Position numbers and translations under genes: made by a program. Below the pieces are notes generated by a model. The model was not told where the DNA came from. It saw only the letters and a list, made by a program, of their open reading frames with translations, and made no database searches. Below, one piece after another: positions 37,670 through 49,320 of a stretch of 64,000 nt of DNA; within the stretch, counting starts at the first letter, position 1, and each line of letters opens with the position of its first letter. The stretch comes from Nitrospirota bacterium (GTDB lineage: Bacteria; Nitrospirota; Nitrospiria; Nitrospirales; Nitrospiraceae): assembly GCA_030684575.1 (NCBI GenBank), contig JAUXVD010000008.1, forward strand, positions 682,001 to 746,000, written 5' to 3'.

Positions 37670-39541
37670 ATGGCCATGAAAAAAAGAACTCACGGGGCGG
37701 TCTGGTCTATTGCCCTGATCGCGATGGTGCTGGCTGTTTCCTGGATTGGCTGGGGCATTCAGAGCCCATCATTTGCCGAGGATGCGACCGATCTGTATTT
37801 CAAGACCCCTGGCGTTCCCCAGGGGCCGCAGGCCCCTTCTCCTCAAGAGACGGTCTATTCGCGTATTGGTTCGTTCGACAGCCGATTGCTTGTGTGGTTT
37901 GTCACGCAACAGCACACGTACTTCGGAGGGTTTGTCCTCGCATTGCCGATCTTTTGTGTCTTGCTGGAGTTCCTGGGGCTCAGCAGTAAAAAGCCTGCGC
38001 TGGCCCTTCGTTATGACGGCCTCGCGCGAGATTTGGCAAAAGTCTCTCTCCTGGCTCTGTCGGTGACGGCGGTGGTCGGGAGCCTCATGCTCGGGATGTT
38101 CATCTTCTTCTATCCCAGTTTCATGAAGTATATGGGTGGAACGTTCAAGGCCTTCATGCCGTACTATGCGATCGTGTTCGTCGGGGAATCGCTGCTGCTC
38201 ATCCTCTACTACTACAGTTGGAGCCGGATGGCCGCGCCGGCGCTGAAGTGGGGGCATGCCTCGATTGGTGTCTTGACGAACCTGTTCGGTGCCGCGCTGC
38301 TGTTTTTGGCGAACTCCTGGTCGGCCTTTATGATGGCGCCGGCCGGCGTCGATGCCAAGGGGCGGTTTCTCGGCAACGGATGGCATTTGCTCCATTCGGC
38401 TCTGTGGAATCCATTAAACGTCCATCGTTTTCTGGCAGATATTATGTCCGGTGGTGCGGTGGTGTTGGCCTATGCCTGCTATCGCTTCTTTACCAGCAAG
38501 ACCGACGAAGAGCGCGCCTATTTCGATTGGGTGGGCTACGTATTTCTGTTCGTCACGGTCTGTGCGTTGTTACCCATGCCCTTTGCCGGGTATTGGTTGA
38601 TGAAATCGGTCTATGCGTTTAGTCAGAGCATGGGCGTCACGATGATGGGCGGCTTACTCACCTGGCTCTTCGTGGTGCAGGCACTCTTGATCGGCGCGCT
38701 GTTTCTTGGCGTGAATTATTACCTATGGCAGAGCATGGCGCGTCTTCGTGGCGGTGAACGGTATCAGCCGTACTATCAGTCGTTGCTCGGGGTCTTGATC
38801 TTGGCCCTGTTTATTTGGCTGACGCCGCATACCGTCATGATGTCGGGTAGTGAAGTGAAGGCGATGGGCGGTTCGTCGCATCCCGTGGTCGGCAACTATG
38901 GCGTGATGTCGGCGAAGAACGGCGCAGTCAATATCTTGATTCTCGTGACTACGCTGAGCTTCATCTACTATCGGCGCGCAAACCGAACGATGGTTGTCTC
39001 CTGGGTGAAAAAAGGAAACTTTCTGATCGGCGCGCTGTTTCTGGTGGGTGCGCTCAATATTATCTGTCTCTCGGTCTATGGCTTCTATCTGCCGGCGAAG
39101 CTTCGCGTCGGGTTGTCGTCGCCACAGGCGATGACGACGTTCACGGTTCTGGTGGGTGCGCTGGTGATCAATCGCATGATGCTCAAGGGGGCACTCGTTC
39201 AGGGGCCGGTCCAATGGGGGAAGATCTCAGTCAGAGGCATGGTGGGCCTATTCGGACTGGCGGCGGCCTTTTCATGGGTTATGGGTCTCATGGGTTATAT
39301 TCGTTCGTCCGGGCGGTTGGCCTGGCATGTGAGTGAGGTGATGGCTGATGTTTCTCCCTGGGCCTTTACGCCGGATTTGGCGTTTGCGGCGAAGATGGTG
39401 ACGCTCAACATGGTGGTATTCTGGGGGGCGGTGTTCGCGCTCTTCTGGATGTGTCAGCGTGATCAGTTGCCGGTGATGGGTGAAGACTTGGCCGAAGGAG
39501 ATGCGACGGTTTTGGCGCAGTCGTCGTCGCAAGAGGCATGA
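37670..39541 (+). CDS. Cytochrome bd-like oxidase subunit I, paralogue 1
   Basis: A 623-residue membrane protein with a dozen or more helices, starting with a signal-anchor (WSIALIAMVLAVSWIGWGI) and a periplasmic loop. It is distantly CydA-like: SRLLVWFVTQQHTYFGGFVLALPIFCVLLEF corresponds to the first heme-binding helix of CydA with QQH, and HLLHSALWNPLNVHRFLADIMSGGAVV to the second. Later motifs shared with the second paralogue are TPHTVMMSGSEVKAMGGSSHPVVGNYGVMSAKNG and SGRLAWHVSEVM. The usual bd motif GRQPW and Q-loop signature are absent. Such proteins in Nitrospira have been proposed as unusual terminal oxidases. Starts at ATG 37670; overlaps the next gene by four bases. Confidence 0.8.
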   Translation: MAMKKRTHGAVWSIALIAMVLAVSWIGWGIQSPSFAEDATDLYFKTPGVPQGPQAPSPQETVYSRIGSFDSRLLVWFVTQQHTYFGGFVLALPIFCVLLEFLGLSSKKPALALRYDGLARDLAKVSLLALSVTAVVGSLMLGMFIFFYPSFMKYMGGTFKAFMPYYAIVFVGESLLLILYYYSWSRMAAPALKWGHASIGVLTNLFGAALLFLANSWSAFMMAPAGVDAKGRFLGNGWHLLHSALWNPLNVHRFLADIMSGGAVVLAYACYRFFTSKTDEERAYFDWVGYVFLFVTVCALLPMPFAGYWLMKSVYAFSQSMGVTMMGGLLTWLFVVQALLIGALFLGVNYYLWQSMARLRGGERYQPYYQSLLGVLILALFIWLTPHTVMMSGSEVKAMGGSSHPVVGNYGVMSAKNGAVNILILVTTLSFIYYRRANRTMVVSWVKKGNFLIGALFLVGALNIICLSVYGFYLPAKLRVGLSSPQAMTTFTVLVGALVINRMMLKGALVQGPVQWGKISVRGMVGLFGLAAAFSWVMGLMGYIRSSGRLAWHVSEVMADVSPWAFTPDLAFAAKMVTLNMVVFWGAVFALFWMCQRDQLPVMGEDLAEGDATVLAQSSSQEA

Positions 39542-40646: not shown

Positions 40647-41570
40647 ATGGAAGATAGGAAAGTGCTGATCGGCTCGATCGTGTTTGTCTTTGGATCGTTT
40701 ATCCTGATGGTTGGCCTGTTGGTCTACGAGTCTTACAAGGCGAAGCAGATGAAAGCGCTGGCCTTGTCGATCACGGCGGAGACTCGTCTTGTGCCGAGCA
40801 ATGTCGCCTCGCTGGATTACTCGATGTATAAAACAAAGATGGGCGATGAGGGCCGCGAGATGGTGCAGGTCCCCGAAGGTCCGTTCATCATGGGCAGTAA
40901 AGATGGCGATCCCGACGAAGTGCCGGAGCGGCAAGTGTTTCTCAAGGCGTTTTTTCTGGATAAGAGAGAAGTGTCGCAAGAGGAATATGCCCGATTCGCC
41001 AAAATGACGAAGCGACCGTTACCGAAAATCGAAGTGTTTGAAGACGATCAATCCAAGCTGCTGAAGCCGGAGTTTGCCGCGATGAGTATGTCGTGGGACG
41101 AGGCGGGGGCCTATTGTAAATGGGCAGGGAAGCGCCTGCCTACGGAAGCGGAATGGGAAAAGGCCGGTCGTGGCGAGGGAAAACGGAAGTACGCGTGGGG
41201 CGATATCTTCGTCACGGGGCATGCGAATGCCAATGTGGATGGGAGTGAAGATGGTTATCGGTATCTCGCACCTCCCGGGTCGTTCGAATCGGGGAGAAGC
41301 CCCTATGGAATCTATGACATGACGGGGAACGTCGCGGAGTGGGTTGCAGATTCGTACGATGAGCATTACTACCAGAAAGCGCCCTACCGTGATCCGAAGG
41401 GGCCGGACGATGTCGATTTGAAGGTGGTGCGTGGAGGGTCGTGGCGAGAGACTGAGCATAACGCCCGGCTCTCCAAGCGATTTGCGGCGAAGCATTGGCG
41501 GACGGATATTACGATCGGGTTTCGCTGTGCCAGCGATATGGAGGTTGGCGATAGCCCTGCGGCGTCATAA
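40647..41570 (+). CDS. Membrane-anchored SUMF1-domain protein 1
   Basis: A 307-residue protein with an N-terminal membrane anchor (VLIGSIVFVFGSFILMVGLLVYES) and a periplasmic SUMF1/formylglycine-generating-enzyme-fold domain: MVQVPEGPFIMGSKDGDPDEVPERQVFLKAFFLDKREVSQEEYARF, WAGKRLPTEAEWEKAGRG, GIYDMTGNVAEWVADSYDEHYY, VVRGGSW and ITIGFRCASD. The copper-binding cysteine pair of true FGE enzymes is missing (the region reads RETEHNARLSKRF), so it is unlikely to make formylglycine. The fold also serves in EgtB, PvdO and carbohydrate or protein recognition. It follows the oxidase operon and is six bases before its paralogue. Confidence 0.85.
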   Translation: MEDRKVLIGSIVFVFGSFILMVGLLVYESYKAKQMKALALSITAETRLVPSNVASLDYSMYKTKMGDEGREMVQVPEGPFIMGSKDGDPDEVPERQVFLKAFFLDKREVSQEEYARFAKMTKRPLPKIEVFEDDQSKLLKPEFAAMSMSWDEAGAYCKWAGKRLPTEAEWEKAGRGEGKRKYAWGDIFVTGHANANVDGSEDGYRYLAPPGSFESGRSPYGIYDMTGNVAEWVADSYDEHYYQKAPYRDPKGPDDVDLKVVRGGSWRETEHNARLSKRFAAKHWRTDITIGFRCASDMEVGDSPAAS

Positions 41571-41575
41571 CAGAC

Positions 41576-42454
41576 ATGCTCGAAACCAAATTTAAGATTG
41601 TGTTCTTGCTTGCCGTTCTCGCGTTTGCGGCACTTCCCATTATGGGAATTATTCGTGGCACGACGCTCACCCCGTTCGAATCAGCTTCCCCTGATTCCAC
41701 CGATTCGTCCTCACCGGAGCCACTGGATCCCTCCCAGGTTTCTCGTGAAGAGCCGATTCGAGAAGAGATGGTCTTGATTCCGGCAGGGCCCTTCATTCGG
41801 GGGACCGATCACGGCGGCTTCGATGAACGGCCGCAGCGTACGTTGGTGCTCGATGCGTTTTCGATCGATCGATACGAAGTCACGAACTTTCAATACCAGC
41901 AATTCGTCGATGCCACCGGCCACCGTAAGTCTGGTCCTCCTTCCCGCTACGCCAAGAACATGAGCCGGATGCGCGGTATTAATCAGCCCGTGGTGTACGT
42001 GTCATGGGACGATGCGGAGACATTTTGCCATTGGAAGGGAAAGCGACTTCCCACTGAGGCGGAGTGGGAGAAGGCGATGAGAGGAACGGATGGCCGTCTC
42101 TGGCCCTGGGGCGATGTGGAGCAGCCCAATGGAGCGAATTGGGCCAGGGTGCAGGATGGTTACGATGTCGCCGCGCCGGTCGGTGCTGTCCTGACCGACA
42201 AGAGTCCGTATGGCGTCATGGATGGGGCGGGAAACGTTATGGAGTGGGTGGGCGACTGGTATGCGGAGGCCTACTTCAGGGAAGCGCCTGAACAAAACCC
42301 TCAGAGCCCTGAATATGGCACCTTTCGGGCGCTCCGAGGGGGAGGATACGCGACTACAGGGGGTGATATTCGTATCACCAGCCGGAGCAAAATGGTTCAG
42401 GACTTTCGGGATGAAACTATTGGATTTCGCTGTGCGGTTTCAGGTGCGAAATGA
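41576..42454 (+). CDS. Membrane-anchored SUMF1-domain protein 2
   Basis: A 292-residue paralogue of the preceding protein, five bases downstream. N-terminal anchor (FKIVFLLAVLAFAALPIMGII), a Ser/Pro/Asp-rich linker of about 30 residues, then the SUMF1 domain: MVLIPAGPFIRGTDHGGFDERPQRTLVLDAFSIDRYEVTNFQYQQF, WKGKRLPTEAEWEKAMRGTDGRLWPWGD, GVMDGAGNVMEWVGDWY, ALRGGGYATTGGDIRITSRSK and ETIGFRCAVSG. It too lacks the FGE cysteines. Two such proteins beside two bd-like oxidase genes point to a role in their assembly or in the periplasmic part of that complex; this is inference. Confidence 0.85.
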   Translation: MLETKFKIVFLLAVLAFAALPIMGIIRGTTLTPFESASPDSTDSSSPEPLDPSQVSREEPIREEMVLIPAGPFIRGTDHGGFDERPQRTLVLDAFSIDRYEVTNFQYQQFVDATGHRKSGPPSRYAKNMSRMRGINQPVVYVSWDDAETFCHWKGKRLPTEAEWEKAMRGTDGRLWPWGDVEQPNGANWARVQDGYDVAAPVGAVLTDKSPYGVMDGAGNVMEWVGDWYAEAYFREAPEQNPQSPEYGTFRALRGGGYATTGGDIRITSRSKMVQDFRDETIGFRCAVSGAK

Positions 42455-42486: not shown

Positions 42487-42591
42487 CTACAACAAATCAA
42501 AGTGGTAGAGAATGAGGAACACGGCCAAAATTATATTGACAACCATGCCGGCCAAAACTATAATGTCGAACACTTTTGAGTTTGCAATCAT
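42487..42591 (-). CDS. 34-residue single-helix membrane protein (minus strand)
   Basis: Reads MIANSKVFDIIVLAGMVVN then IILAVFLILYHFDLL: one 23-residue hydrophobic helix with a short polar N-terminus. ATG 42591 has GGGG upstream on the minus strand. It is divergent from the two small plus-strand genes. Too short for family assignment; it could be a small subunit like CydX of the bd-type oxidases, or a chance frame. Confidence 0.45.
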   Translation of the reverse strand: MIANSKVFDIIVLAGMVVNIILAVFLILYHFDLL

Positions 42592-42714
42592 CGATTTTCC
42601 CCTGATATTTCGTGTGCGGCAAAGAATTTTGAATAACATATGAATATCTGTGTGTCAAGAAATTCGCTGAACTGATCTAGGCGCGTATTATTTCCATCAG
42701 GAGAAGGAGACACG

Positions 42715-42837
42715 ATGGCAACAGTAGTAGCAGATAGCGAGTTTAAGGTTAAGGTCGGTCGGATGATTTTCTACATTACCTGCGCGGCAGGTTTGTGGTT
42801 TTTTTATTGGTTCGCAGGAATTCAGTGCCCCTGCTAA
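42715..42837 (+). CDS. 40-residue membrane protein ending in CPC
   Basis: A strong ribosome site (GGAGAAGGAGA, 42700-42710) stands before ATG 42715. The protein MATVVADSEFKVKVGRMIFY... has a polar N-terminus, one helix (MIFYITCAAGLWFFYWFAGI) and the C-terminus IQCPC. It lies upstream of the second small gene and bd-like oxidase 2. Tiny single-helix subunits are typical of bd and heme-copper oxidases, so a small oxidase subunit is the favoured guess. Confidence 0.6.
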   Translation: MATVVADSEFKVKVGRMIFYITCAAGLWFFYWFAGIQCPC

Positions 42838-42900
42838 GAAAAGGGCCGCTGTATTTCTGGGATTTTTTCAATGGCTGCAAGTTGTGAGGGAGGGAGTTTT

Positions 42901-43023
42901 ATGGGTCAGACAATCGTTTATACGGTGGTGTCACTCGTTATTTGTGTTGCCTTCTTCACGGCAGTGGATCATTTTTTGATGGATTCGCAAGGGCTGGATT
43001 TCTGGTATTTGTTCCGGAACTAG
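42901..43023 (+). CDS. 40-residue membrane protein
   Basis: ATG 42901 with GGAGGGAG upstream. One helix (VYTVVSLVICVAFFTAVDHFLM) followed by a short polar C-terminus (DSQGLDFWYLFRN). The C-terminal aromatic cluster recalls small oxidase subunits. It is 80 bases from the bd-like oxidase 2 start, on the same strand. Confidence 0.6.
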   Translation: MGQTIVYTVVSLVICVAFFTAVDHFLMDSQGLDFWYLFRN

Positions 43024-43103: not shown

Positions 43104-45017
43104 ATGGGTTTAGTGGCTGGGAAGAAGCTGTTCTCAATCATGGCGCTTTGCGCGATGATTGGCCTTCTCCTGCTCCCCATCGCCGTATCGCTTCCAACAC
43201 TGGCTATGGGCGCTGATGCGCCTGAAGAAGTGAAGAAGGATGGTGAGGCGAAGGTTGAGAAGGGGAGAGACGTCTATTATAAGACCGAGGGTATCGTTGT
43301 CGGCGCTCCTGCTCCGAAGACGGTCGATGGTCCTCGGGATTATCCGCGATACAACTTCGAGAGTCGGGTGTTGCTCTGGTTCGCAAATCAGCAGCACCTC
43401 TATTACGGAAGTTTTGTGCTCGCGGTTCCGATTTTCTGCATGGTCATCGAGTTCATGGGAGTGGTGACGAAGGATAAGGCGATGGCCAAGCGGTATGACC
43501 AGCTCGCCTATGACTTCATTAAGATCAGCCTGACGGCCTATTCGCTGACCGCCATTCTCGGCGGTATCCTGATCTTCACCTTCCTGACTCTCTATCCAGC
43601 ATTCTTCGGTTACTTATCCAGTATCTTCCGTCCGGTCATGCATATTTATGCATTGATGTTCGTGGCGGAGAGCGGAACCCTCTACATCTATTATTACGGT
43701 TGGGACAAGATGCGGGAAGGGTTCCTTAAGTGGATTCACTTGAGCATGTCCGTCATTTTGAACGTGATCGGAACGTTGCTCATGTTCCTGGCGAATTCAT
43801 GGATTGCGTTCATGATGTCGCCTGCCGGTGTCGATGAGCAGGGGCGCTACCTGGGGAACATCTGGCACGTCATTCATACCGCGCTCTGGAATCCGCTCAA
43901 TGTGCATCGTATTTTGGGTAACATGGCGTTCGGTGGCGGTGTCGTAGCGGCTTACGCCGCGTACAAGTTCTTGGCCTCCAAGACCGATGAAGATCGTGCG
44001 CATTATGATTGGATGGGTTATATCGCCATGGCGCTCGGCGTGGCGTTCTTGATCCCCTTGCCGTTTGCCGGGTATTGGCTGATGCGCGAAGTGTATGCCT
44101 ATCGCCAGCAGATGGGCATTACCCTCATGGGCGGGCTTCTGGCTTGGCTCTTCATCATTCAGGCTACGATGATCGGTATTCTCTTCCTCAGCACCAACTA
44201 CTATCTCTGGCAGGCTCTCGGTCGGATGCGTGGTGCTGAGAAGTATCAACGTTACATCAAGTATCTCGTGTTCGTTCTTTGTTGCGGCTACCTGGTGTTC
44301 ATTACTCCTCATACGATTGTCATGACTCCCGCCGAGCTCAAGGCGATGGGTGGTCAGCAGCACCCGGTGTTGGGAAACTATGGCGTCATGTCGGCTAAGA
44401 ACGGTGGAATCAATGTCATTATCACGACCACCATTCTGAGCTTCGTGTGGTACATGCGAGGCAACAAGGTCTCGACGGTATCCTGGTCGAAGTTTGGCAA
44501 TATCTTCATGGGCTGCTTTTTCGGTTGCGCCTACGTGAATATCATCGGACTCGCGGTCCTGGGATATTATATTCCGGCGAACGTGCGCGTCGGTCTGTCG
44601 GTTCCTCAGGTGGCGACGACCCTATCCTGCCTCTTCTTCATGTTTGCGCTCAATAGCTTCATGATGAAGGGTGCGAAGCAGATGGGGCCCATCGAGTGGG
44701 GGAAGATCTCGGCTCGTTCGCAATATGCGTTGATCATGCTCGCGACGGCCTTTACCTGGATGATGGGGTTGATGGGGTATATTCGCTCATCAGTCCGATT
44801 GTTCTGGCACGTGAATGAAATCATGCGAGATAACTCACCCTGGGCCTATACCCATACGGTGGGGTTCGCCGCAAACATGATTTCATTCAATGTGTTGTTC
44901 TTCTGGATCAGCATTCTCTTTGTCTTCTGGCTTGGTAGCCTGGGGGTGAAGAAGGCGCCAGTTGAAGCAAAGGCAGGGGTTCCTGGTGGCGCCGCACAGC
45001 CAGCTGGGAGTCACTGA
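43104..45017 (+). CDS. Cytochrome bd-like oxidase subunit I, paralogue 2
   Basis: A 637-residue membrane protein, clearly a paralogue of the protein at 37670. ATG 43104 is chosen for AAGGAGG at 43091-43097; the frame is open from 43065. After a leader (FSIMALCAMIGLLLLPIAVSLPTLA) and a charged periplasmic segment come ESRVLLWFANQQHLYYGSFVLAVPIFCMVIEF, WHVIHTALWNPLNVHRILGNMAFGGG, FAGYWLMREVYAYRQQMGITLMGG, TPHTIVMTPAELKAMGGQQHPVLGNYGVMSAKNG and RLFWHVNEIMRDNSPWAY. Against CydA, NPxxVxF(V)H of the second heme site is replaced by NPLNVHRILGN, and the GRQPW loop is lacking. The C-terminus is Ala/Pro-rich. Downstream come membrane cytochromes, its likely electron donors. Confidence 0.82.
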   Translation: MGLVAGKKLFSIMALCAMIGLLLLPIAVSLPTLAMGADAPEEVKKDGEAKVEKGRDVYYKTEGIVVGAPAPKTVDGPRDYPRYNFESRVLLWFANQQHLYYGSFVLAVPIFCMVIEFMGVVTKDKAMAKRYDQLAYDFIKISLTAYSLTAILGGILIFTFLTLYPAFFGYLSSIFRPVMHIYALMFVAESGTLYIYYYGWDKMREGFLKWIHLSMSVILNVIGTLLMFLANSWIAFMMSPAGVDEQGRYLGNIWHVIHTALWNPLNVHRILGNMAFGGGVVAAYAAYKFLASKTDEDRAHYDWMGYIAMALGVAFLIPLPFAGYWLMREVYAYRQQMGITLMGGLLAWLFIIQATMIGILFLSTNYYLWQALGRMRGAEKYQRYIKYLVFVLCCGYLVFITPHTIVMTPAELKAMGGQQHPVLGNYGVMSAKNGGINVIITTTILSFVWYMRGNKVSTVSWSKFGNIFMGCFFGCAYVNIIGLAVLGYYIPANVRVGLSVPQVATTLSCLFFMFALNSFMMKGAKQMGPIEWGKISARSQYALIMLATAFTWMMGLMGYIRSSVRLFWHVNEIMRDNSPWAYTHTVGFAANMISFNVLFFWISILFVFWLGSLGVKKAPVEAKAGVPGGAAQPAGSH

Positions 45018-45041
45018 TCATCTTTAGGATCTTGCTTGGGG

Positions 45042-45072
45042 GAGTGGAGGCACGTGGTACGTGCCTCCACTC
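45042..45072. terminator. Hairpin between bd-like oxidase 2 and the cytochrome gene
   Basis: GAGTGGAGGCACG (45042-45054), loop TGGTA, CGTGCCTCCACTC (45060-45072). A 13-bp perfect stem with no T-run; it may stabilise the upstream mRNA or attenuate the operon rather than end transcription. Confidence 0.5.
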
Positions 45073-45099
45073 TTACCAAAACCTCAGGAGGTTACAATC

Positions 45100-46413
45100 G
45101 TGGGCGATCTGATAAACGAAGCAATTTCAATAGGGTGGCCGCTGCTCGCGCTTCTCGCGGGGCTTCTCGTGTATTCCCTGGTATCGATTAGCGATCCAGT
45201 GGCAAAGAAACGCGCAATATTCAAGCTCTTTATTGGCATCATCGCAGCGTTCATGCTGTTGGTCGCAATTGCGCATTACAAGACCAGCTTCTATGAAGCG
45301 AATCGGATGCTGCCGGTCTCTTTAGTGCTTATCACCGCGATGTGCTTCATGATGGGAATCTACTTCCCCAATCAAGCCGCATTACTGAAGATCGGCGGCT
45401 TTATGTTTTTTGTCGCGGCCGGTCTCTCCGGATATGGGAATTGGCTGCCGCAGGTTGAAGGAGGATTCCCACCAAAAGAAGAGAAGATCCAGTTTGAGTC
45501 GATGACTGCACAGCAATTGGCCGATGAAGGCGAAAAGATCATTTTCGGTGGTATCGGGCAAAATAAGGTTCAGGGCGCGATTGGAAAAGGGCAATGTCCT
45601 CTTTGTCACGCATTCCACAAAGGAATGTTGGGAGAGCGTGCGCCAAACCTTGATGGTATTCCTGAGCGCGCAGGCAAAGAGCGGCTGGAAGATCCTAAGT
45701 ATAGCAAGGGAAAGCCTGCGGGTAGAGACTATGCTCAGAAGGAAGCTTTTCCTGGAGCGGGTACCGCAGAGAATGGCCAGGAGTATATCGCTGAATCCCA
45801 CGCCTGCCCGAGCTGTTATGTTGTTGCCGGCTTTGGCGTGAAGGGTACGAACGATAAAGAAAGCCCAATGCCTGCCATCCACAAGCCACCGATCTCGCTG
45901 AGTCTCCCAGAGTTGGCGGCTGTGGATACGTGGCTTTATATCCGCGAAGGGCGCGATGCTCCGACATACGAGGAAATCATCAAGTCGTATGAAAAGTTTG
46001 TTCCTGAGGCGGATAGGCCGAAACAGCAAGACGATAAGGCCGCCGGTCCACCCAGCGCCTTGATGGCGGATGGAACTGAGCCGGTCGATCAGATTTTTGC
46101 AAAGGCTCAGTGCGTGGCTTGCCATACGATCCCTGGCATTCCTGGGGCGGTCGGCACGATCGGTCCTAAACTGGAAGAGGGGACAAATGCCCCGCTTCGC
46201 ATAAAGAGTGCGGATTATAAAGGTACAGCAAAGACCACTCCTGATTATATCATGGAGTCGATCATTTCACCGAGCGCCTATGTCGTGAAGCCATTTCCAG
46301 ACAATACGATGCCCAAGGTGTTCGGGCAGAAGCTCAGTGCCGGGGCTCTGAAGAAGATCGTCGATTATTTGTCACAGGTAAAGGCGGGATCGCCGCCGCC
46401 GAAGATTTCATAA
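45100..46413 (+). CDS. Membrane cytochrome c with two intact heme motifs and one altered one
   Basis: A 437-residue protein. GTG 45100 follows AGGAGG at 45086-45091. About four helices at the N-terminus (WPLLALLAGLLVYSLVSI; AIFKLFIGIIAAFMLLVAIAHY; LPVSLVLITAMCFMMGIYF; GGFMFFVAAGLSGYGNW) carry a periplasmic part with CPLCHAF and CVACHTI. A third site that should be a heme motif reads CPSCY, so it lacks the distal His. The region TMPKVFGQKLSAGALKKIVDYLSQV closes a cytochrome c domain with Met as probable sixth ligand. It likely passes electrons to the bd-like oxidase upstream. Confidence 0.82.
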   Translation: MGDLINEAISIGWPLLALLAGLLVYSLVSISDPVAKKRAIFKLFIGIIAAFMLLVAIAHYKTSFYEANRMLPVSLVLITAMCFMMGIYFPNQAALLKIGGFMFFVAAGLSGYGNWLPQVEGGFPPKEEKIQFESMTAQQLADEGEKIIFGGIGQNKVQGAIGKGQCPLCHAFHKGMLGERAPNLDGIPERAGKERLEDPKYSKGKPAGRDYAQKEAFPGAGTAENGQEYIAESHACPSCYVVAGFGVKGTNDKESPMPAIHKPPISLSLPELAAVDTWLYIREGRDAPTYEEIIKSYEKFVPEADRPKQQDDKAAGPPSALMADGTEPVDQIFAKAQCVACHTIPGIPGAVGTIGPKLEEGTNAPLRIKSADYKGTAKTTPDYIMESIISPSAYVVKPFPDNTMPKVFGQKLSAGALKKIVDYLSQVKAGSPPPKIS

Positions 46414-46456
46414 TCGTGCCTGTCTACCTCTTTTGTTCAGCAAAGGGAGTTTGCCG

Positions 46457-47494
46457 ATGAAAGCATTAATGTCAGTCGCGGCACTCATAGGAGCAGTTGG
46501 GATACTCCTGCTTGCCGGAATGATTGTCGATATCATTCCGTCAAATACAGTGCGCCTGGTCGAAGGTTACATGCCCATGCAAGTGCTTTTTGAGCTCACG
46601 CTATTTGTTGCGGGCTTTACAGGGTTGAGCTACATGTTGAGTTCCATGGGAATGGCGGTCCCTCGCTTTTGGCAGGGGATTTCGTTTTGGGCGTTCATTC
46701 TCCTGTACTTGAAGTATCGCGTGTATCCGCCAATCCCGTTCAGTGTTCGTGCGATGTACGGGACTGTCTCGCTCGTATCCGTCTTCATGTGGGTCTCTGC
46801 GAGTGAAGAAGATTGGAAGAAGTTCAAGCAGCCGATCATGAATATCCTGGATGCTCAATCCGGGGTGAACAAGCTGTTGCGGTACGCCTACTTGGTGGTG
46901 TTGCCCATTCTGATCGGTGGATTTTCCTATAACGCGATGGTGCCGAAGTCGGAGGAGCCCATCGAGTTGCGCACGGTGCATCCGGCGCCACCCGCCAGCA
47001 CCAAGGTGCATGGCAAGACGTACACGCTCCAAACGTCGCAGAATCCCTATCGTGTCAACCTCGAAGGGAAGTTCGATCAGGAATATAGCAACGCGAATAT
47101 TGTGGAACAGGGCATGGGTCGGTTGATGAAGCCGAACGCCAATCCCTGGGATAAAGATGCTCAGGGCTATCTGAAGTATGTGCGTGAGGGAGGAGAGATC
47201 TTCTTCCAAAACTGCCACTTCTGCCACGGCGATAACCTGAACGGTCGCGGCCTCCATGCTTTCGCGTTCAATCCAATTCCTGCGAACTTTACTGATCCGG
47301 GAACGATTGCACAATTACAGGAAACGTTTATTTTCTGGCGCGTCTCCAAGGGTGGAATCGGGTTGCCGAACGAAGGCTTCCCCTGGGCCTCAGTGATGCC
47401 ACCGTGGGAGCAGCATCTGACTGTAGACGAAATCTGGAAAGTGATCTTGTTCGAGTATTGGCATACGGGGTATTACCCCCGAACCTGGGACTAA
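46457..47494 (+). CDS. Membrane cytochrome c, monoheme
   Basis: A 345-residue protein with about five helices at the N-terminus (LMSVAALIGAVGILLLAGMIVDII; MQVLFELTLFVAGFTGLSYML; FWQGISFWAFILLYLKY; GTVSLVSVFMWVSA; LLRYAYLVVLPILIGG) and a periplasmic cytochrome c domain with CHFCH and a probable Met ligand in WASVMPPWE. ATG 46457 has AAAGGGAG at 46442-46449. It is 43 bases behind the preceding cytochrome gene and belongs to the same operon. Confidence 0.8.
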   Translation: MKALMSVAALIGAVGILLLAGMIVDIIPSNTVRLVEGYMPMQVLFELTLFVAGFTGLSYMLSSMGMAVPRFWQGISFWAFILLYLKYRVYPPIPFSVRAMYGTVSLVSVFMWVSASEEDWKKFKQPIMNILDAQSGVNKLLRYAYLVVLPILIGGFSYNAMVPKSEEPIELRTVHPAPPASTKVHGKTYTLQTSQNPYRVNLEGKFDQEYSNANIVEQGMGRLMKPNANPWDKDAQGYLKYVREGGEIFFQNCHFCHGDNLNGRGLHAFAFNPIPANFTDPGTIAQLQETFIFWRVSKGGIGLPNEGFPWASVMPPWEQHLTVDEIWKVILFEYWHTGYYPRTWD

Positions 47495-47544
47495 TCGTTC
47501 ACGGGAATTTCTAGCCAACCTGGATTTACGACATGAGGGAAACC

Positions 47545-49320
47545 ATGAAGAATTCGTTTAGTCTGAAGGCGGGGGCGCTCCTCGCGACTGCCTTTGGAAT
47601 TATCCTGGTCTCCGGGAGCACCGGGGGCGTAGCGTTTGCCGTAGAAGCCCTTCCTGAGGGTTTCAAGAAGGCTGAATTGTCGCCTGAACCTGCTGCCGAC
47701 ATGATTGAGGCAGGCAAGCGTGTGTACTTTACCAAGTGTGTTTGGTGTCACGGCGTCGATGGTGCGGGCGATGGGCCTGGCGCAGACCGTCTCTGGCCTC
47801 GTCCCCGTAACTTCAACCAGGGGACGTTCAAGATTCGGCGCACGGCGAGCGGTGAGTTGCCGTTGTTCGATGCCAAGAAACCTATTCCTGGTCAGAACGA
47901 TCTGTTTGAGACCGTCACGCATGGTCTGCCAGGTTCAGCCATGCCATCCTGGGAAGGCATTCTGACGGAGGAGCAACGACTCCAAGTGTTGTCTTTCGTG
48001 ACCACCCAGCTGGTGAAGGACCGGAAGTTTACGGATAAGCAGTCCGAGAGCCAGACCGTGTTGCAGTTGGACGAACTGAAGCCGATTCCCGTCTCAGAGG
48101 AGAGTTTAAAGAAGGGCGCAGAGCTTATCGTCGAAAAGAAGTGCGTGGAATGTCACGGCGCTGAAGGCCGTGGCGACGGCAATGCGTTCAATCTGAAGGA
48201 CGATTGGGGCTTTTCGATTCAGCCGGCCGACTGGCACAAGTGCTGGAACTTCAGGGGCAGCCGCCAAGATCCCTATAACGTCAAAAACATTTTCCGGACA
48301 TTCTCAACTGGAGTCAACGGTACTCCGATGCCTTCGTTTGCTGACAACAGCACGGTCGAAGAACGGTGGCACATTGCTAACTTTGTGAACTCGCTGTGTG
48401 AGCGGGAAGCCGACGGGAAACCCCTTTCAATCGATCCATTGGCAGACAAGCCGAAGATCAACTTCGTGGTCTCGTCAGGTGTGGTTGAAGGAGAGATTCC
48501 TGCAGATCCAGAGCATGAATTGTGGAAGAATCGGGCCAGGCGGTATGTGGCAATGGGTGGTCAGATCACTCACAAGCCAAGAAACTTCGTGAATCGGATC
48601 GACGATATTTGGGTGAAGTCCCTCTACAACGACAAACATGTCGTATTCATGTTCCAGTGGGACGACCGGACGAAGAGCGTAGCCGAAGGGAAGTTGCCTT
48701 GGGCGCCAACGTCCGTGAATGTCGATGTCAAAGAACAAGATCCGAAGACCGGCGAAGAGGGTTCGATTGCCGCGCATCAGAATAACTACACGGTGTATAA
48801 CGATGCGATCGCGATGCAAACGGCCGTGAAGTGGAAGGAGCTTCCGGCGCCGATTAAACCACGGTATCTGTTCGGCAGCAACGAGCAGTTCCCTGTTGAT
48901 ATTGTGAAGTGGGAAGCTGATGGCTCACTCCGTGCCTTTGAAGGTACCGGTTGGGACAAGGACTTCACCCAACGCGATACCTACGAAGAGAACATCAAGA
49001 TTCTTCACTCAGAGTGGAAGAATGGACGGTGGACGGTCATCATTCAACGTCCTTTGGGAAACAAGAAGGATCAGGATTACGACGAAGATACGTTCTTCGA
49101 AATGGGACAGTATATTCCCACGGTATTCTTTGCTTGGGACGGCCACAATGGCGACGCAGGGCGGAAGATGGCCGTGTCGGCCTTCTACTACACCTTCCTG
49201 GAGCCACCAACGCCTCGCGAAGCCTACATCTATCCGGTTGTGATTGCCTTTGGTGTGGTCCTCCTGGAAGGGTGGGTTCTCACGAGACGATCCAACAAGC
49301 GGAAGGGAAAGACGCTCTAA
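47545..49320 (+). CDS. Diheme cytochrome c fused to an ethylbenzene-dehydrogenase-type heme-binding domain (NxrC-like)
   Basis: A 591-residue exported protein; ATG 47545 is preferred because GAGGGAA lies just upstream (a second ATG at 47533 is possible). Leader, then two cytochrome c domains with CVWCH and CVECH (each with a Met in AMPSWEG and PMPSFAD). From about residue 325 there is an EB_dh/NarI-gamma-like beta domain (DDIWVKSLYNDKHVVFMFQWDDRTKS, WTVIIQRPLG, MAVSAFYYTFLEPP), which binds heme b in chlorate reductase, ethylbenzene dehydrogenase and proposed NxrC proteins. A C-terminal helix (AYIYPVVIAFGVVLLEGWVL) anchors it. It may link a molybdo-enzyme or quinone pool to the oxidases. Confidence 0.83.
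   Translation: MKNSFSLKAGALLATAFGIILVSGSTGGVAFAVEALPEGFKKAELSPEPAADMIEAGKRVYFTKCVWCHGVDGAGDGPGADRLWPRPRNFNQGTFKIRRTASGELPLFDAKKPIPGQNDLFETVTHGLPGSAMPSWEGILTEEQRLQVLSFVTTQLVKDRKFTDKQSESQTVLQLDELKPIPVSEESLKKGAELIVEKKCVECHGAEGRGDGNAFNLKDDWGFSIQPADWHKCWNFRGSRQDPYNVKNIFRTFSTGVNGTPMPSFADNSTVEERWHIANFVNSLCEREADGKPLSIDPLADKPKINFVVSSGVVEGEIPADPEHELWKNRARRYVAMGGQITHKPRNFVNRIDDIWVKSLYNDKHVVFMFQWDDRTKSVAEGKLPWAPTSVNVDVKEQDPKTGEEGSIAAHQNNYTVYNDAIAMQTAVKWKELPAPIKPRYLFGSNEQFPVDIVKWEADGSLRAFEGTGWDKDFTQRDTYEENIKILHSEWKNGRWTVIIQRPLGNKKDQDYDEDTFFEMGQYIPTVFFAWDGHNGDAGRKMAVSAFYYTFLEPPTPREAYIYPVVIAFGVVLLEGWVLTRRSNKRKGKTL

Follow-up and report, generated by a model that had tools for sequence, protein, structure and literature searches.

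Three very small genes located upstream of the bd-like_2 oxidase gene in a Nitrospira-type genome (here called A, B and C) are, judging from how their sequences vary among relatives, real genes under selection. They very probably encode small subunits, or dedicated assembly or stability factors, of the OR-N2 oxidase complex, the three being unrelated to one another. A broader reading, in which the OR-N-type oxidases of several bacterial groups have in common three hitherto unrecognised single-helix subunits, unrelated to CydX and CydH, and so form a distinct multi-subunit type of cytochrome c oxidase, with the sigma70-type operon promoter running antisense within gene A in Nitrospirales, is considered probable. 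The genes lie in a window of 64,000 nt (the whole stretch of DNA analysed), with A placed divergently on the minus strand and followed by B and C on the plus strand (Table 1). A first-pass annotation of this DNA had proposed three frames of 34, 40 and 40 amino acids, each with a single hydrophobic helix; their coordinates and lengths were exactly as claimed. It had credited strong ribosome sites to the plus-strand pair only. Those of B and C are indeed strong, but A has a good site too. Ahead of the cluster, two consecutive SUMF1/FGE-like proteins are encoded (40647-42454), the second of which matched an FGE-sulfatase profile; both were seen near the cluster in most of the class Nitrospiria loci read.

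Table 1. Features of the bd-like_2 region (positions in the window; gene A and its candidate promoter are given in their own reading direction).
Feature	Position	Strand	Remarks
Gene A, 34 aa, MIANSKVFDIIVLAGMVVNIILAVFLILYHFDLL	42591..42487	minus	single-TM; motif [D/N]-x5-G-x3-N; divergent to the oxidase operon
Gene B, 40 aa, MATVVADSEFKVKVGRMIFYITCAAGLWFFYWFAGIQCPC	42715..42837	plus	single-TM; motif G-x3-F-x~10-F-x-W; Nitrospirales C-terminus GIQCPC
Gene C, 40 aa, MGQTIVYTVVSLVICVAFFTAVDHFLMDSQGLDFWYLFRN	42901..43023	plus	single-TM; motif F-x3-D-x3-M-x2-Q-G-L
Shine-Dalgarno AGGGG, gene A	42599..42603	minus	
Shine-Dalgarno AAGGAG, gene B	42704..42709	plus	
Shine-Dalgarno GAGGGAG, gene C	42890..42896	plus	
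-35 TTGACA, probable B-C-oxidase operon promoter	42536..42541	plus	antisense within gene A
-10 TATAAT, probable B-C-oxidase operon promoter, spacer 17	42559..42564	plus	antisense within gene A
Candidate gene A promoter, TTGACA and TGTTATTCA	42658..42653 and 42638..42630	minus	conserved alignment blocks; putative assignment
bd-like_2 / OR-N2-type CydA-like oxidase, 637 aa	43104..45017	plus	PF01654; AF2 model; naming after PMC6606698 and PMC12342949
Membrane cytochrome c, two CxxCH	45061..46413	plus	conserved cluster
Membrane cytochrome c, one CxxCH	46433..47494	plus	conserved cluster
alt_NxrC_1, diheme c + DMSOR type II gamma-like domain	47533..49320	plus	naming after PMC6606698
bd-like_1 (OR-N1-type), proposed CydA' partner	37670..39541	plus	no adjacent A/B/C homologue; PMC12342949

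Small frames are common in this DNA: 172 ATG ORFs of 30-50 amino acids were counted across the window, and 22 ORFs of at least 20 amino acids overlap the ∼0.9 kb searched here. Conservation was therefore used as the test of whether A, B and C are real. A single hydrophobic segment is present in each protein; the highest KD mean over 19 residues was 3.1 for A, 1.6 for B and 2.4 for C, the hydrophobicity of B being unremarkable on its own. Among the 32 genomes of the genus, A was found in 31, B in 30 and C in 29, and the complete trio was present in all 19 good-quality genomes, bearing out the expectation that the frames are conserved in other Nitrospira. Across the family, A (on the opposite strand), B and C occupied the equivalent position in 44 of 44 orthologous bd-like_2 loci. 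A Shine-Dalgarno-like site preceded A in 42, B in 44 and C in 41 of these 44 loci, as compared with 18% of random 14-mers. Within the genus, substitutions in the three genes fell mainly at third codon positions, with dN/dS values of 0.21 (A), 0.10 (B) and 0.07 (C). Interrupted frames, or a lack of purifying selection in relatives, had been set beforehand as the outcome that would speak against the genes; instead, the frames were uninterrupted in the 44 loci and purifying selection was evident in all three. It is their conservation, rather than their size, that exceeds chance. The suggestion that A, B and C arose by chance as open frames within conserved intergenic DNA draws on the frequency of small ORFs. 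It is refuted by this conservation, by the selection seen at the codon level and by the occurrence of the three genes in other bacterial groups (see below), and retains next to no probability.

Some departures from the usual forms were observed. At one locus (L021, G025:C99:2006-2155) gene A carries an in-frame tandem duplication of VFDIIVLAGMVVNIIL in which the promoter region is duplicated too; this may be an assembly error. In three divergent members of the family (L135, L137 and L144) the C frame starts further upstream and there encodes another hydrophobic helix and a loop rich in lysine, which suggests a two-helix form of C. The tail of B ends in CPC in Nitrospirales (positions 42820-42834 of the window) and contains histidines in Gammaproteobacteria (e.g. 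GVTVHHG). These tails could possibly act as periplasmic metal ligands, although such a role would not be universal.

The OR-N classification is said to come from Murali et al. 2021, reportedly the original OR-N paper. The neighbouring bd-like_2 protein has the two attributes of an OR-N2 bd-like oxidase, a Cyt_bd_oxida_I N-terminal domain (PF01654, E-value 5.5e-20) and the CydA fold, the latter found in an AF2 model with a mean pLDDT of 79. This model aligned to CydA/AppC structures with Z scores of about 30-34 (33.8 to 7ose_A, from E. coli bd-II, and 31.9 to 9r2g_A), and to alternative complex III (6f0k, chain F) with a Z score of 22.7. The gene order from the oxidase (OxN2) through two cytochromes c to alt_NxrC (43104-49320) agrees with that reported for N. 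moscoviensis bd-like_2 in PMC6606698; according to the same source, the corresponding region is highly transcribed in that organism, and bd-like_2 corresponds to its putative complex IV. It also corresponds to the NIDE0901-like OR-N2 CydA as described in PMC12342949. The subunit composition of OR-N enzymes is experimentally unconfirmed, as stated in PMC10839748. The Nitrospina genome paper (PMC3578206) ascribes 14 helices to the related bd-like oxidases, which according to it lack the quinol-binding residues and carry three helices where the Q-loop would be.

Profile searches recovered A, B and C in the remaining order and class of Nitrospirota. An OR-N2 alignment was then scanned against 84,980 species genomes, yielding 80 loci with titles naming Nitrospirota, Nitrospinota, Deltaproteobacteria and Alpha-, Beta-, Gamma- and Zetaproteobacteria. 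Homologues of the small genes immediately precede OR-N-type oxidases in each of these groups, although in Nitrospinota only in some. Seventy loci had sufficient upstream DNA to be counted. The zone preceding the oxidase, which makes up about 10% of the bases, contained C at 65 of the 70 loci, B at 52 and A at 41, using profiles partly trained on those same loci; profiles trained on Nitrospirota only already gave 65, 51 and 39, respectively. Outside this zone there were two matches to C, none to B and 17 to A; 16 of the 17 outlying A matches were at most 5.5 kb upstream of their own oxidase, and 15 of these 16 lay on the strand opposite to it. The conserved order is [A]-B-C-OxN2-cyt c-cyt c-altNxrC, and in most loci with enough DNA the two cytochromes c and altNxrC, sometimes fused, were present downstream of the oxidase. 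In two loci from deeper Nitrospirota (L164 and L184) and in L242 all three small genes and the oxidase are co-directional (A-B-C-oxidase); in the former two the order continues with both cytochromes c and altNxrC. A few residues are nearly invariant across groups: D (95%), G (99%) and N (100%) in A; G (100%), F (97%) and W (97%) in B; and D (96%), Q (93%), G (99%) and L (98%) in C. By these residues A, B and C are three separate families. Outside Nitrospirota, 50 of the 51 cross-group A candidates had D-x5-G-x3-N, these candidates having been chosen by a profile that contains the motif.

The association with the oxidase put forward in the first-pass annotation was thus upheld and widened, with the trio accompanying OR-N2-like oxidases in strict co-location in several bacterial groups. 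In the genome of the window, no homologues of A, B or C were found beside bd-like_1, bd-like_3 or bd-like_4. Confident matches in 295 Nitrospirota genomes were confined to those with an OR-N oxidase, and two good-quality genomes without an OxN2 orthologue (G088 and G319) were missing all three. Co-location and co-occurrence with OxN2 were constant across genomes, with some exceptions. The trio was not found beside extra OxN2 (bd-like_2) paralogues, 79-81% identical, at five loci (L139-L143, in G068, G062, G093, G073 and G042). Partners may therefore be shared in trans or be dispensable at these loci. A different small hydrophobic ORF lies near two of these paralogues. Further, B went undetected in 18 of the 70 cross-group loci, none of the three was found in L187 and L188 (labelled Nitrospinae), and A is sometimes several kb away from the oxidase.

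A diheme cytochrome c subunit was present in 42 of 44 loci with B vs 8 of 17 loci without it (Fisher p 5.7e-5, uncorrected for phylogeny), a co-occurrence that hints that B may contact this subunit. Orphan second copies of B, with a CPC end, a longer N-terminus and no adjacent oxidase, were noticed in four genomes (L179-L182, in G035, G041, G042 and G267); a one-to-one pairing of these copies with the extra OxN2 paralogues was looked for and not found. At nine loci (L196, L208, L218, L228, L240, L255, L257, L260 and L261) the oxidase is followed by a shorter, monoheme cytochrome c. All nine were without a detectable B, which was present in 42 of the 50 loci where this subunit is longer and diheme.

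Gene A contains on its opposite (plus) strand a perfect sigma70-type consensus, TTGACA-N17-TATAAT (42536-42564), one of nine in the 3.79 Mb genome. This feature was previously unreported and absent from the first-pass annotation. The idea that the other perfect-consensus promoters drive stable RNAs was discarded, a tRNA being present at only one of the nine loci. The sequence lies 150 bp before B and is therefore probably the promoter of the B-C-oxidase operon. Its hexamers were conserved at 12 of 12 positions throughout the Nitrospirales loci, a comparison of 51 distinct sequences from which L021 was set aside, including the four degenerate third bases that they contain (codons 10, 11, 17 and 18 of A), which were invariant, while the amino acids encoded there use several codons elsewhere in A. 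Within the genus, the synonymous difference in A was 0.00 for the promoter codons vs 0.32 for the others; this antisense element helps to account for the slow silent-site change in A. When the promoter codons were left out, dN/dS for A was 0.18 in the genus and 0.135 in the family, and A therefore seems to serve both as a coding sequence and as a promoter. It might be argued that A is a by-product of the conserved operon promoter inside it, with B and C as the only genes, since the perfect conservation of the hexamers in Nitrospirales lowers its synonymous divergence. This is very improbable: A is conserved as coding sequence outside the promoter codons, it keeps its Shine-Dalgarno site, its motif recurs outside Nitrospirota (with the selection of candidates mentioned above), and class-level relatives retain protein A while the match to the promoter at that register falls to 6-9 of 12 positions. 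On the minus strand, a conserved TTGACA and TGTTATTCA (42658-42630) form a candidate promoter for A, although its spacing to the -10 is ambiguous (14 or 17). If both assignments hold, the transcripts of A and of B-C-oxidase would overlap at their 5′ ends.

B and C occupy the 5′ portion of the operon mRNA and contain two terminator-like matches, which could point to leader peptides regulating how the oxidase mRNA is translated, and not to membrane subunits. Two such matches are nevertheless close to chance (0.8 were expected), and B and C are conserved at the protein level, with membrane-helix motifs, in several bacterial groups, which makes a leader role most unlikely.

The co-location of A, B and C with OR-N2 oxidases in several bacterial groups makes it probable that they are hitherto missing components of the enzyme. 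The OR-N2 complex would consist of the CydA-like OxN2, two cytochromes c and alt-NxrC, and perhaps also include OxN1. The oxidase mRNA would yield B and C immediately ahead of the catalytic subunit, and A would be made from its own divergent promoter. The positive-inside rule predicts an N-in/C-out topology for the three proteins. Following the roles of CydX and CydH in quinol bd oxidases (PMC8951039), they would probably pack against the CydA-like subunit of this presumed cytochrome c oxidase at its outer helices, the place of CydX and CydH in canonical bd oxidases, and there hold together the heme-bearing helices and shape the access to these, or else anchor the cytochromes c.

The main rival to this proposal is that A, B and C are transient assembly or maturation factors for OxN2 or the cytochromes c, absent from the finished enzyme. 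The cbb3 oxidase has assembly factors of its own, CcoS and CcoH. The divergent and at times distant position of A is as expected of an accessory gene, and the extra OxN2 paralogues come without a trio of their own. Against this, B and C directly precede the catalytic subunit in most cross-group loci, as many structural small subunits do, and the nearly invariant residues in or near the helices suggest a fixed packing interface. The genomic association as such would fit a subunit and an assembly factor alike; a purely transient role is nonetheless rated as unlikely.

In Nitrospira, which are key nitrite oxidisers, OR-N enzymes have been proposed as the main terminal oxidase (complex IV), and three conserved small components would provide a testable parts list for OR-N2. 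Heterologous expression of OR-N2 should include A, B and C, as a failure without them would be open to misreading, and their motifs offer a cheap genomic marker by which OR-N2 and its paralogues can be told apart. The promoter-like sequence in gene A represents a clear and strongly conserved overlap of coding and promoter sequence: if the reading is true, a ∼100-bp stretch is constrained both as protein and as promoter in Nitrospirales.

The first-pass annotation had also regarded small subunits as essential in related oxidases. This holds for CydX, which is needed for assembly, but not as a general statement, since E. coli bd-II lacks CydH (PMC8951039). A, B and C matched no family in Pfam, NCBIfam or the PDB. 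The CydX motif YxxWxxGx15[E/D], present in 97% of CydX homologues (PMC4325964), was found in none of 108 A, 116 B and 126 C sequences (0/350). The Pfam CydX profile matched none of 79 diverse members of the three families, nor did the window's three proteins match any CydX family in NCBIfam. Searches for CydH and CcoQ in Pfam gave no match to A, B or C at E≤0.01, and no oxidase small-subunit chain was found in the PDB at E≤10 (profiles A1-A3 and A5-A7). With neither motif nor Pfam or PDB sequence match, membership in CydX, CydH or CcoQ was ruled out. Single matches below the cut-off to Syndecan, SoxE_N, TUNAR, Adeno_E3B, catalase-peroxidase and SecE were dismissed as typical of hydrophobic helices.

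The open-licence papers on OR-N enzymes, a set without Murali et al. 2021, describe no small subunits in their accessible parts. Among known systems, CydX, AppX and CydS (Pfam YbgT/YccB) resemble A, B and C in their length (30-50 amino acids), their single TM helix and the position of their genes next to that of a CydA-type subunit. However, the gene for CydX accompanies the cydA-cydB pair of quinol oxidases, whereas A, B and C are found with OxN2 and cytochromes c in a cluster with no CydB, and there are three small proteins at OR-N2 as opposed to one or two in CydX systems. CydH/CydY (YnhF) of E. coli bd-I is likewise an accessory subunit with one TM helix, and its gene lies outside the cyd operon, much as A sometimes lies apart, but it has no sequence match to the three proteins; its homologues have been reported from proteobacteria whose bd oxidases are of the L type (PMC8951039). 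CcoQ/FixQ and the other small subunits of cbb3 are, like A, B and C, small single-TM partners of a cytochrome c oxidase with c-type cytochromes, although the enzyme that they serve is a heme-copper oxidase unrelated to that of OR-N2. The neighbours here are instead OR-N-type CydAA' oxygen reductases (bd-like_1/bd-like_2, NIDE0901 type), as presented in PMC12342949, PMC10839748 and PMC6606698. On these comparisons, A, B and C are most likely analogous, and not homologous, to CydX and CydH.
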